This document shows, piece after piece, positions 18,331 through 25,128 of a stretch of DNA of 34,145 bases. Both the position numbers and the translations under genes were made by a program. Origin of the DNA: Acidimicrobiia bacterium. Lineage in GTDB: Bacteria > Actinomycetota > Acidimicrobiia > UBA2766. Each line of letters opens with the position of its first letter. Position 1 is the stretch's first letter. The DNA lies in assembly GCA_020850945.1 (NCBI GenBank), contig JADZDR010000024.1, positions 1 through 34,145 of the forward strand, read 5' to 3'. The notes under the pieces were generated by a model, which saw only the letters and a program-made list of their open reading frames with translations, had not been told where the DNA came from and did not search any database.

Positions 18331-18456
18331 GTTCCGCAGAACGTTTCAAGTTCCTTCTGGAGGGAGGTGGGCGGCGCAGAGCGAACTCCGATCCTGACGA
18401 GGGCACGAGGTAGGCGGTGCGTCACCACCTTGCGCTCCGGGAGGGGTTCGACCCAG

Positions 18457-20109
18457 ATGCTGTTTTCGAGGATCAGGGGAGGAACGGCATCCGGACCGGC
18501 GCCTGGCACCGGCACCAAACCCGCGACGCACCGCCTCGCCCGGCTCCTTTGTGCCCTCGTGCTGGGGGCGGCTTCGGCTGCGGCACCCATCCCGTCAGCC
18601 GCAGCCGACCCGCCCCCGGCCCGCCCCATACCCGACTGGTTCGGGCGCGGCCTCGTACCCGGCTTCGTGGGAGGACCCCACACGCCGGACCCGCCGGCCG
18701 GGACTCCGCCGCCCCAGCATCCCTTCATGGCCGACAGCGGCGCGAACCTCATGCACGGGGACTCCTACGAGTCAGGCACGCACGCCGCGTCCGGGCCGCT
18801 CGGCATCGATCCCGAGGTGCGTTCGTCGGCCTTCGCCCCCATCGGCGGACTGTGCGCCGCGATCTCGTTCGACTCGCAGGGTCGCATCGTCACCGTGTGC
18901 GGCTCCTTCAAGAACTTCACGTTGCGCCTCCTCGACCCCGTGAGCCTCGGCCAGTACGCGGCGCGGACCCTGCCGCAGCGTCCCTCCACCCTCCAGGCCC
19001 TCCTCACCCTCGATCTGAGCAAGATCTTCACGGACACGTCGGGAGGCGCCTACTTCTACCTCGACCACCTGGACCGGGCGGTTCTCGTCGACGCCGACCA
19101 GAACCTGCGCGTGATCCGCGTCGACGAGTCAGGGCCGGCGCCGGTGTTCGTCGACGACCTCGTCCTGCCCCTCGCCGGCCACCTCGCGGAGCGGGACTGC
19201 TTCTCGTTCCCGGACAACCTCTTCCCGTCCGGCCGTTGCGACGCCGTCACGACCGTGATGCCCGACTGGGACGGCACCTACTGGTGGGTGTCGCGCCTCG
19301 GGATCGTGGGCACCGTGGATCCCACCAGCGGCGAGGTGCAGACGATCGACCTCGGCGAGGAGATCCAGAACAGCGTCGCGACTGCTCCGGACGGTGTCTA
19401 CATCCTCTCCGACCACGCGATGTACGGCTTCCGGCGTGACGCCGGCGGCGCCCCCGAGATCGCGTGGAGGGAGACGTACGAGCGGGCGGTCGCCCCCCGC
19501 CCCGGCCAGATCAACCTCGGCTCGGGCACGTCGCCGACACTCATCGGCGACGACCTCGTCGCGATCGCCGACGGGGCCGACCCGATCAACGTCGTCTTCA
19601 TGAACCGCGATCCCAACTTCGGGGGGGAACGGACCCTCTGCACGGAGCCGGTCTTCGCGGCCGGGCGAAGCGCCACGGACAACTCGCTGATCGGCTACGG
19701 CAACTCCGTCGTCGTCGAGAACAACTACGGATACGCGGACTTCCTCACCGTCGTCTTCGGCCGCACCGTCACGGGCGGTCTGGCCAAGGTCGACCTCGTC
19801 GACGACGGGGGCGGCGCCTTCCACTGCGAGACGGCCTGGACGAGCAGCGAGCGCTCGCCGTCGACGGTCCCCAAGCTCTCACGGGGGAACGGACTCGTCT
19901 ACATTGACACGAAGGCGGCCGGACCCGGCATCGTCGACGCGTGGTACTTCACCGCGATCGACTGGGACACGGGCGATACGGTGTACAAGGTCCTCACGGG
20001 GACAGGCTGGAACTTCGACAACCTCTGGGCGCCGATGACCGTGGGCCCCGACGGGACCGGCTACGCCGGGGTTTTCAACGGGCTCGTCTCGGTCACCGAC
20101 CAGCCCTGA
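18457..20109 (+). CDS. secreted propeller-like protein of unknown function
   Basis: A 550-residue exported protein that I do not recognise as a named family. A signal peptide occupies about residues 1-50 (basic start, then LLCALVLGAASAAAPIPSAA). A Pro-rich segment follows (PPARPIPDWFGRG, PPAGTPPPQHPF). The rest is a series of beta-strand-turn blades such as FDSQGRIVTVCGS, DGTYWWVSRLGIVGTVDP, APDGVYILSDHAMYGF and DGTGYAGVFNGLVSV, consistent with a beta-propeller of PQQ/NHL type. Several cysteines could pair outside the cell. The ATG at 18457 follows GGGAGGGG. It is divergent from lysR. A GC hairpin follows its stop, so it may be transcribed separately from the HAD gene. Confidence 0.75.
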   Translation: MLFSRIRGGTASGPAPGTGTKPATHRLARLLCALVLGAASAAAPIPSAAADPPPARPIPDWFGRGLVPGFVGGPHTPDPPAGTPPPQHPFMADSGANLMHGDSYESGTHAASGPLGIDPEVRSSAFAPIGGLCAAISFDSQGRIVTVCGSFKNFTLRLLDPVSLGQYAARTLPQRPSTLQALLTLDLSKIFTDTSGGAYFYLDHLDRAVLVDADQNLRVIRVDESGPAPVFVDDLVLPLAGHLAERDCFSFPDNLFPSGRCDAVTTVMPDWDGTYWWVSRLGIVGTVDPTSGEVQTIDLGEEIQNSVATAPDGVYILSDHAMYGFRRDAGGAPEIAWRETYERAVAPRPGQINLGSGTSPTLIGDDLVAIADGADPINVVFMNRDPNFGGERTLCTEPVFAAGRSATDNSLIGYGNSVVVENNYGYADFLTVVFGRTVTGGLAKVDLVDDGGGAFHCETAWTSSERSPSTVPKLSRGNGLVYIDTKAAGPGIVDAWYFTAIDWDTGDTVYKVLTGTGWNFDNLWAPMTVGPDGTGYAGVFNGLVSVTDQP

Positions 20110-20158: not shown

Positions 20159-20164
20159 CGGGGC

Positions 20165-20848
20165 CTGGACACAGCCGAGCTCCGTCTCTTCGTATTCGAT
20201 CTCGCCGGCACGACGATCGCCGACGACGGGCGTGTCCTGCGCGCCTTCAGGTCCGTCGCCGCCCGCGAGGGCCTCGAGGCGGACGACGCGTGGCTCACGT
20301 CACGCATGGGATGGTTCAAGACGCGCGTGTTCGAGGACCTGCTCGCCCGCAACGACCGCGACCCGGCGCAGGCCCGCGTCCTCACCGAGTCCTTCGACCG
20401 CACCATCGGGGACGACTACCGGGCCGACCCGCCCCGCCCCCTCGCCGGGGCCGTCGACTCGATGCAGACCCTTCGCGCAGCCGGTACGGCGATCGGCTTC
20501 ACGACAGGCTTCACGCGGGCGGTCACCGACGTGGTCTTCGGGGCCCGCCCGTTCGGACACGACTTCACCCCCGACGCCGTCGTCGCATCGGACGAGGTCG
20601 AGCGGGGTCGCCCCGCTCCGGATCTCGTGTTCGAGGTGATGCGCCGCGTGGGTGTCGTGGATCCACGCACGGTCGGGGTGGCGGGTGACACGCCGGCCGA
20701 TCTCGAGGCGGGAACTGCGGCGGGCTGCCGCGTAGTGGTCGGGGTCGGCCACGGCACGCACACACTCGCCCAGCTCGCCTCTGCCCCCCACACCCACCTC
20801 CTTCCCGATCTCGGCGGCCTCGTCGCCGCGATCTCCGAGACACCCTGA
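20165..20848 (+). CDS. phosphonatase-like HAD hydrolase (PhnX-like)
   Basis: A 227-residue haloacid dehalogenase-superfamily enzyme closest to phosphonoacetaldehyde hydrolase. Motif I is FDLAGTT (nucleophile Asp12), the DxAGT form typical of phosphonatases instead of DxDxT. Lys52 in MGWFKTR matches the Schiff-base lysine of the PhnX cap. The motif III lysine is replaced by Arg in ERGRPAPDLV, another phosphonatase trait, and motif IV is GVAGDTPADLEAG. It therefore probably cleaves a carbon-phosphorus bond of an aldehyde- or keto-phosphonate. No ATG, GTG or TTG precedes motif I in frame. The CTG at 20165, 6 nt after a TACGCT box, is the best start. The first gene of a probable four-gene run. 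Confidence 0.82.
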   Translation: MDTAELRLFVFDLAGTTIADDGRVLRAFRSVAAREGLEADDAWLTSRMGWFKTRVFEDLLARNDRDPAQARVLTESFDRTIGDDYRADPPRPLAGAVDSMQTLRAAGTAIGFTTGFTRAVTDVVFGARPFGHDFTPDAVVASDEVERGRPAPDLVFEVMRRVGVVDPRTVGVAGDTPADLEAGTAAGCRVVVGVGHGTHTLAQLASAPHTHLLPDLGGLVAAISETP

Positions 20849-20929: not shown

Positions 20930-22444
20930 GTGAACAGGCACGCCGACTTCGAGAAGACGTGGGCCATCCTCTGCTCGGAGGAGGTCGCGCCGATCTGCGA
21001 GATGGCCGTCGCAGCGGGCGAGGAGATGGACACCTACGTCGTGGGCGCGGCGGACGGCAGCGTCGAATTCCGGCGCATCCGTGACGGGGGCGGGTATGCA
21101 TACGAGGTCCTCGGTGTCGAGGGCAGGAACCCGCTCGCGAGGCGCGACCCGGCGGCGTTCTCACCCCTCTCCGTCGAGCTCGGCGACCTCTTCCCCGCCA
21201 GGGACCGCAATCACTACCCGGATGCCTTCGAGTCACTCAGCCAGATCTTCGACGATCCGAACGCCCCCGACATCGGCGTCGTGCACAGCGCCGCGCACAA
21301 CTGGGAGGACCGGGGCGGGCATCGCGGTGAGCACGGCTCGATCGACGTCGTGCAGGCACGTGCGCCCATGATCTTCTCCGGTCCCGGCTTCGGCCGGGGC
21401 GGCTTCGTCGATGCCGGCATGCGCAACGTCGACCTCGCCCCCACCCTCGCCGCGGTCCTCGGCGTCGAGCCGCGACCCGGCATGCACCTCGACGCGTCGG
21501 ATGCGGACGGCCTCTTCCTCGCGCGCCAGGACGGATGCGTCGTCGACAGCGTGCTCGACCCCGACACACGGCCCGAACACCTCGTATTCTTCCTCATGGA
21601 CGGGACGAACTCGAACGTCCTGTACCAGATGCTCGAAGACGGCCTGCTTCCCAACATCGGCGCACTCGTCGCGTCCGGCATCGCCCTGCGACAGGGGAGC
21701 ACGGCCGCCTTCCCCACGATCACGCTCGCGAACCACACGACGATGGTGACCGGTGCCTACCCGGGCCACCACGGCATCCTCCACAACGCGTACTGGGATC
21801 GGGCCAAGGCGCAGGAGATCGTGACGAACCATCCGGCCACGTGGGCAATGGCCCGCGACTGGATGCGCGACGACGTCGAGACCCTCTGGGAGGCGGCCGC
21901 ACGGACGTGGCCGGATGCGTTCACGGCGTGCGTGAACGAACCCGCCGACCGCGGGGCGGGCTATTCGACGTTCGACTTCTTCCGGCGAGGCGAGGTGCCG
22001 GCGATCGCGTCACCCGACTCGGTGCCGCACGCGAACCAGCGCTTCGTGCGCCCCCACAAGGACTACGCGTGGAGCGTGTCGGTCGACCACATGGCCATGG
22101 AACAGGCCCGCGGCATCTGGACGGGAACGTACCGGGACACCTCCTACCCGGCTCCCAAGCTCATGTGGGTCAACTTCACGCTCACGGACTCGGCGATGCA
22201 CCTCGGCGGGCCCCATTCCGAGGTCGCCCGCGCCTCGATCGAGGAGTGCGACGCCCGCATCGGGGAGATCGTCGATGCGATCCGCATGCGGGGAGTCCTC
22301 GACCGCACGGCCTTCGCGCTGTCCGCCGATCACGGCATGGAGGAGACGAACCCCGAGGTGAGAGGCGACTGGAACGAGTCGCTGCGCGACGCAGGCATCG
22401 ACTACCGGGACGAGGCGTACGGCTTCATCTATCTGGGTGTCTGA
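20930..22444 (+). CDS. alkaline-phosphatase/NPP-superfamily enzyme, circularly permuted
   Basis: A 504-residue two-metal phosphatase/phosphodiesterase. From residue 217 it reads like the N-terminal part of a nucleotide pyrophosphatase/phosphodiesterase. LVFFLMDG gives Asp224 and AFPTITLANHTTMVTG gives nucleophile Thr263. TLTDSAMHLGG gives Asp420 and His424, and SADHGMEE gives Asp467 and His468. The seventh ligand, normally a late His in a GxHG motif, is missing there. It appears instead at His135 in GEHGSIDVVQARAPMIFSG, followed by PGF and VDLAPTLAAVLGVEPRPG, the usual C-terminal segment of the family. The order is therefore permuted. Start GTG follows GAGGGGGGG. Phosphonoacetate hydrolase belongs to the same superfamily. 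Confidence 0.8.
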   Translation: MNRHADFEKTWAILCSEEVAPICEMAVAAGEEMDTYVVGAADGSVEFRRIRDGGGYAYEVLGVEGRNPLARRDPAAFSPLSVELGDLFPARDRNHYPDAFESLSQIFDDPNAPDIGVVHSAAHNWEDRGGHRGEHGSIDVVQARAPMIFSGPGFGRGGFVDAGMRNVDLAPTLAAVLGVEPRPGMHLDASDADGLFLARQDGCVVDSVLDPDTRPEHLVFFLMDGTNSNVLYQMLEDGLLPNIGALVASGIALRQGSTAAFPTITLANHTTMVTGAYPGHHGILHNAYWDRAKAQEIVTNHPATWAMARDWMRDDVETLWEAAARTWPDAFTACVNEPADRGAGYSTFDFFRRGEVPAIASPDSVPHANQRFVRPHKDYAWSVSVDHMAMEQARGIWTGTYRDTSYPAPKLMWVNFTLTDSAMHLGGPHSEVARASIEECDARIGEIVDAIRMRGVLDRTAFALSADHGMEETNPEVRGDWNESLRDAGIDYRDEAYGFIYLGV

Positions 22445-24237: not shown

Positions 24238-25128
24238 GTGGGTGGGGAGGCGACCACTTCCGGGGAGCTGCCGACCTTGATTCCACGAGGGGGAATTCCG
24301 GCAGGTGTGTCTGCACCGACGACACCTGTGGAGACACTCGGCGACATGGCCGCGCGTGTGGCGACACTGGCGAGCGCTACGCGCCGCCTCGACCGCGACG
24401 GCTACATGCGCGTCCCCTCGTTCTGCGCTGCGGACACCCTCGCCTCCCTGAGCGAAGCCGCCGCGGCCCACGTCCGCGCATCCGACCCGACGCCGCCCCA
24501 GACACGCGAACGAGCGGGGACCACCACACGCGTGCGCCGGTCCGAGACCCTCTCGCTTCTCTTCGGGATCCACCGCCTCCCCGCATACCGATCCCTGCTC
24601 GAGAGCCCGGCCTTGGTGGACCTCACGCGCTGCCTCCTCGGCGACGACGTCGACTGCTTCCTCTCCGTGTTCCGGGAGAGGGCACCCGGCAACATCGGCG
24701 AGGGCTGGCACCAGGACGGCTTCTGGTACCCGTCGACGACGGGGAACACCCTCGTCGCGTGGCTCGCCCTCTCGGACGTCATCGCTGCCCGCGGCGCGCT
24801 CAAGGTCGTGCCCGGCTCGCACGCGTGGGGTCTTCTCCCCCACCAGCCGGACATCCGCGAGGGAAGCGGGCGAGGCTGGATGCACATCCCTCACCCCCAC
24901 GGTGACCCGGCACGGATCGAGCTCCGGGCCGGGGACCTCGTGCTCATGCAGGACGCGCTGGTCCACGCATCGGACCCGAACGCGTCGGCGTTGCCGGCCC
25001 GCGAGGCGCTCTTCTGCTTCGTGACAGCCGGCACCACCGTCGACTCCGAAGGCATCGATGCCGTAACCGACCGCATGCCCTGGCTGCGGGGAGGCAAGGC
25101 GAGACGCGGCCGGGCGCCACGACACTGA
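24238..25128 (+). CDS. PhyH-family Fe(II)/2-oxoglutarate dioxygenase
   Basis: A 296-residue protein of the phytanoyl-CoA dioxygenase family. The double-stranded beta-helix shows the facial triad GWHQDGFWYP (His158, Asp160) and LVHASDPN (His243). The 2-oxoglutarate-binding Arg255 is in PAREALFCF, and WLALSDVIAARGALKVVPGSH is the family hallmark. It would hydroxylate a small substrate using oxygen and 2-oxoglutarate. The PhnY phosphonate hydroxylases belong to this family, so a phosphonate substrate fits the PhnX-like and phosphatase-superfamily neighbours, but many other substrates are known. The GTG start has GGGGGA upstream. The first 30 residues are low complexity, and an internal ATG at 24346 is an alternative. 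Last gene of the run. Confidence 0.82.
   Translation: MGGEATTSGELPTLIPRGGIPAGVSAPTTPVETLGDMAARVATLASATRRLDRDGYMRVPSFCAADTLASLSEAAAAHVRASDPTPPQTRERAGTTTRVRRSETLSLLFGIHRLPAYRSLLESPALVDLTRCLLGDDVDCFLSVFRERAPGNIGEGWHQDGFWYPSTTGNTLVAWLALSDVIAARGALKVVPGSHAWGLLPHQPDIREGSGRGWMHIPHPHGDPARIELRAGDLVLMQDALVHASDPNASALPAREALFCFVTAGTTVDSEGIDAVTDRMPWLRGGKARRGRAPRH

Follow-up and report, generated by a model that had tools for sequence, protein, structure and literature searches.

The stretch of DNA analysed here, hereafter the window (34,145 nt from an Acidimicrobiia bacterium), carries on its forward strand a gene for an enzyme whose catalytic domain appears to be circularly permuted. The features discussed below, all on the plus strand, are these:

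18367-20109, plus: 580-aa protein with a hydrophobic stretch in its N-terminal region, no Pfam or NCBIfam match
20162..20848 (start approximate), plus: HAD hydrolase (TIGR03351 and motifs), upstream neighbour lying outside the enzyme gene
20930..22444, plus: predicted permuted NPP-like (PF01663) enzyme gene, from the open reading frame, Pfam, AlphaFold2 and N-terminal hydrophobicity
20930..21250, plus: residues 1-107, new N-terminus with a helix and a beta insert, lying between the two hhalign blocks and described from secondary structure
21251..21478, plus: residues 108-183, displaced C-terminal segment (GGHRGEHGS ... VDLAPTLAAVLGVEP), from hhalign to canonical positions 411-493
21332..21334, plus: His135, predicted seventh metal ligand, aligned with the His of the canonical Gly-x-His-Gly, 52/52 homologues
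21479..21568, plus: residues 184-213, linker between the former C- and N-termini, the gap between the two blocks
21569..22441, plus: residues 214-504, canonical first part of the domain (Asp...Thr...Asp-x3-His...Asp-His), from hhalign to canonical positions 127-376
21599..21601, plus: Asp224, predicted metal ligand, aligned with Asp of canonical NPP, 52/52
21722..21724, plus: Thr265, predicted nucleophile, aligned with the canonical nucleophile Thr, 52/52
21785..21787, plus: Asn286, predicted phosphate-contacting Asn of NPPs, aligned with Asn, 52/52
22187..22201, plus: Asp420 and His424, predicted metal ligands, aligned, 52/52
22328..22333, plus: Asp467-His468, predicted metal ligands, aligned, 52/52
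24238-25128, plus: PhyH-family dioxygenase near the enzyme gene

The enzyme gene opens with GTG and encodes 504 amino acids, in which N-terminal hydrophobicity revealed no signal peptide; the enzyme is probably cytoplasmic. Pfam assigns it to PF01663 (type I phosphodiesterase/nucleotide pyrophosphatase) at 137.4 bits against a gathering cut-off of 23 bits, and all ten members of alignment A1 match the same family. The match spans residues 218-498 but only profile positions 1-249 of 342, since the protein stops there and the remainder of the domain lies at its N-terminus. The early stop after the Asp-His motif that the sequence-only reading had described is real, the protein ending 36 residues past His468, and the GEHGS motif (with His135), MIFSGPGF and LAPTLAAVLGVEP lie in the N-terminal part where that reading had put them.

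Segment order was compared by means of profiles made from 21 members of the permuted family and from ten canonical-order enzymes. With hhalign, residues 214-502 of the core profile (206-504) aligned with canonical positions 127-376 (probability 99.8, E 2.7e-30), while residues 108-183 of the N-terminal profile (1-205) aligned with canonical positions 411-493 (probability 96.4, E 1e-9). When the canonical profile was doubled, the two blocks fused into one unbroken alignment (108-502 to 411-882, E 4.7e-34) scoring 275, compared with 221 for the core alone, the best single-copy piece. The displaced segment reached at best an E of 0.025 against 20 column-shuffled canonical profiles and 0.39 against the reversed profile, and the doubled-profile controls scored at most 23.6 (20 column-shuffled profiles) and 15 (reversed profile), which excludes a chance match of the displaced segment. 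In a canonical enzyme the counterpart of residues 1-107 would be the interval from the strand following Asp-His to the Gly-x-His-Gly segment (canonical 376-411); these residues had no independent match to any canonical enzyme.

A phmmer search of the PDB gave the same picture for the Xanthomonas enzyme Xac NPP (2gsn), in which residues 215-313 matched 6-98, 408-475 matched 159-226, and 129-184 matched 318-373 in swapped order, the last being weak alone. Putting the segments back in canonical order raised the Pfam score only from 137.4 to 141.1 bits, a small gain since PF01663 ends before the His segment. The permutation proposed from the bare sequence is supported by the swapped phmmer pieces, the swapped profile-profile blocks, the doubled-profile alignment and the ligand invariance described below.

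An enlarged alignment comprised 53 distinct rows including the window's own protein, of which 52 were near full length and were used for conservation. The seven ligand and nucleophile residues and Asn286 are invariant in these 52 distinct homologues, and in the doubled-profile alignment Asp224, Thr265, Asn286, Asp420, His424, Asp467, His468 and His135 are each aligned with the same amino acid in the X. sacchari NPP. Asp224, Asp420, His424, Asp467 and His468 are the residues picked out in the sequence-only reading, as is the spacing of 43 from His424 to Asp467, which recurs between His297 and Asp340 of the aligned X. sacchari enzyme (L114). The nucleophile was placed wrongly at Thr263: within P-T-I-T-LANH it is Thr265 that lies opposite the Thr of the canonical motif PSLTFPNH, and a Thr stands there in 52/52 homologues, whereas Thr263 lies opposite a canonical Ser and is itself a Ser in 9/52. 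The predicted nucleophile is therefore Thr265. The aligned residues keep a constant offset that agrees with the Xac NPP numbering D54, T90, N111, D210, H214, D257 and H258, with H363 off by one.

The ligand order Asp-Thr-Asp-His-AspHis-His with a late His is absent, the His segment being N-terminal in all near-full-length homologues. Homologues retaining a complete late GxHG histidine had been named as evidence against permutation; none of the 52 has a C-terminal extension able to carry one, the longest tail past residue 502 being 15 residues, so that loss of a late His is answered as an objection. Nor did any of the 52 near-full-length homologues have a second core upstream. Two further histidines, His119 and His123 (window 21284-21298), are also invariant in 52/52 homologues, at positions where the X. 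sacchari NPP has Met and Trp; they may be substrate or extra metal contacts.

AlphaFold2, run with ten sequences, returned a model of mean pLDDT 86 and pTM 0.90, with pLDDT below 50 only at residues 121-142 (the His135 loop) and 469-473. Foldseek ranked NPPs as the best matches over only ~265 aligned columns (target TM 0.43-0.45 for Xac NPP), as would be expected of a permutant, since Foldseek aligns in sequence order and the permuted part is beyond its reach; no significant match was found among viral structures. An alpha/beta core with a central mixed sheet, as in other members of the superfamily, may be present. Predicted alone, residues 1-214 reached a pLDDT of 64, with 122-168 below 50 (mean pLDDT 32-42), whereas residues 141-170 have pLDDT 75-97 in the whole-protein model. 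This loss of confidence fits an N-terminal segment that would belong to the core sheet.

Among known systems, the closest for comparison are the bacterial NPPs (Xac NPP, PDB 2gsn/2gso; X. sacchari WP_082028935.1), in which all seven ligand/nucleophile residues and Asn286 align, the core appears similar and the His424-Asp467 spacing is the same. The permuted enzyme differs from them in its rearranged segments, in having no visible signal peptide and in a larger region between the Thr and Asp420. Eukaryotic ENPPs supply the best PDB matches to the core by both sequence and Foldseek, have the canonical order and use a Thr nucleophile in most cases; ENPP1-3 carry somatomedin B and nuclease-like domains in addition (PMC11677397). 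Phosphonoacetate hydrolase PhnA (TIGR02335, PDB 1ei6) belongs to the same superfamily and matches partially (residues 219-301), but unlike the permuted enzyme it has the canonical order, and identity with it was rejected at 43.5 bits against a cut-off of 407.55. A further member of the superfamily, L002 (a 434-aa frame), is encoded in the same genome and likewise has the normal segment order.

The enzyme thus very probably is a circularly permuted single-domain member of the alkaline phosphatase superfamily, within its type I phosphodiesterase/NPP branch; comparison of sequences establishes the swapped order, shows that this order is conserved, and finds every ligand conserved too. The old C-terminal segment, with His135 in its Gly-x-His-Gly and D-APT-LLG further on, would now be N-terminal and joined through the ~30-residue linker to the old N-terminus, and the new ends would fall in the loop past the strand downstream of the Asp-His pair. 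The two parts would assemble into the usual core and bind two divalent metals, one through Asp224/Asp467/His468 and the other through Asp420/His424/His135, and Thr265 would attack a phosphate (or phosphonate) ester via a covalent phospho-enzyme. The permutant is most likely an active two-metal phosphoryl hydrolase.

We weighed three other accounts of the gene. That the C-terminal part and the seventh ligand were simply lost, GEHGS belonging to an unrelated accessory domain, would agree with the lack of any Pfam match to the N-terminal 205 residues alone and with their weak single-sequence matches to canonical enzymes. We regard this as extremely unlikely, given that the missing segment is itself found by profile-profile comparison (E 1e-9, controls negative), that its Gly-x-His-Gly is invariant, that the doubled-profile alignment is continuous, and that most of the N-terminal segment folds confidently only with the core. 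The N-terminal segment might instead complete the core of a second chain in an intertwined, domain-swapped dimer, as completion within and between chains look the same in sequence; the pTM of 0.90 for the monomer model and a linker that is probably long enough to rejoin the old termini make such swapping very unlikely. The window is the whole contig of a fragmented 97-contig assembly, and a rearranged or frameshifted contig might be suspected on that account, but the same order recurs in dozens of independent genomes, including the single-contig G411 and G117, so that the chance of an assembly artefact is negligible.

Permuted homologues are, by their sequences, common in Actinomycetota and kept across several of its classes. 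Family matches, some not full length, were found in 61/296 genomes of the window's own class, 37/198 of the class of G117, 5/5 of the class of G083 and 15/396 genomes sampled across the phylum. A pattern scan of all genomes, which reaches close relatives only, hit Actinomycetota only; plasmid records matched the core only, and were canonical-type enzymes where inspected. Some copies are broken: L172 (G727) has a frameshift near residue 157 with a short loss, L174 (G656) is a shrunken relic, and frame changes occur in L013 and L064 (G108), reflecting either sequencing error or pseudogenes. Apparent split-gene versions were rejected in G791, where the scaffold has a run of N, and in G727, where the frameshift with its short loss lies at the junction.

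Gene neighbourhoods did not point to a substrate. The HAD hydrolase upstream in the window scores 173.5 bits with TIGR03351, below the cut-off of 218.9, and is close to PhnX-like phosphonatases (DLAGTT and the cap-Lys motif MGWFK); another neighbour has a sub-threshold GH57 match. Together the HAD and PhyH genes may form a phosphonate-related cluster in this genome only, and a phosphonate pathway was rejected as a clue to substrate, as the PhnX-like, GH57-like and PhyH neighbours were not found beside other homologues. At 15 loci a GlmM-cluster gene lies upstream of the permuted gene on the opposite strand, followed at 13 by a GlmS-like-cluster gene. Both names are taken from L096, where rplM lies between and where the permuted gene is divergent from rplM, glmM and the GlmS-like gene (L096:9231-14876, plus strand); the GlmS-like open frame there is 1132 aa and falls below the curated GlmS cut-offs.

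Four genomes encode much longer relatives (1181-1389 aa, open frame):

L060:1574-5116, plus: long, probably nested protein, secreted-looking
L061:1121-4948, plus: long, probably nested protein, secreted-looking
L062:1716-5744, minus: long, probably nested protein, secreted-looking, LPFTG or LPRTG end
L063:1828-5994, minus: long, probably nested protein, secreted-looking, LPFTG or LPRTG end

Their parts run in the order His-segment 1, linker, core 1, His-segment 2, core 2 and further material, which past core 2 is Ig-like by weak Pfam matches; L062 and L063 end in LPFTG/LPRTG followed by a hydrophobic stretch and arginines, an LPxTG-like arrangement. Scored with the permuted N-terminal profile, His-segment 1 reached 73-107 bits and the region holding His-segment 2 no more than 10; with the permuted core profile, core 2 reached 143-168 bits and core 1 50-68 bits. 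Almost the whole of the canonical paralogue L002 aligned with the stretch formed by core 1 and His-segment 2, at 27-30% identity and with E values as low as 6e-44. A tree built from the cores, several of its branches long, united the single-domain proteins with core 2 (100/97) and placed core 1 with L002 (97/94). The profile matches, the L002 alignment and the tree are best explained if, in the long proteins, a canonical-order domain was inserted into a permuted one at the linker between the old ends.

The linker motif L-x-RQDG-x-V is common to the single-domain proteins, the long proteins and L029, which comes from the window's own family (genome G003) and is cut by its contig end. L029 has a single-type junction, yet it groups with core 2 (99/93), and genome G069 holds both single and long forms. 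We tentatively suggest that the single-domain permuted form is older than the long secreted-looking one, since with this placement of L029 a single-first history takes one insertion and a long-first history two deletions. The reverse history, in which the 504-aa form arose from an ancestral two-core protein by deletion of the middle canonical domain, draws on the fact that the short form equals the long one minus its middle, with all its segments present there; given the single-type junction of L029 within the core 2 group of this unrooted tree, we consider it unlikely.

To our knowledge, all members of the superfamily share one linear ligand order, an order that is common to the described members and not a formal criterion of membership. 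A search of the open-access literature turned up no natural permutant described for the alkaline phosphatase superfamily, and a 2024 review devoted to its fold does not mention permutation (PMC11677397). We think it rather likely that this is the first recognised natural permutation in the superfamily, one kept across Actinomycetota classes and accompanied, in a secreted-looking offshoot, by a canonical domain nested at the rejoined termini to give two complete active sites per chain. This superfamily serves as a model in the study of catalytic promiscuity and of conserved folds, and a conserved natural permutant would mean that the linear ligand order is not required within it. Annotation with linear profiles would report such enzymes as truncated. 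For engineering, the permutant would offer evolution's own choice of sites at which to cut and join the chain, and the nested two-domain proteins may serve as material for studying the origin of such rearrangements.
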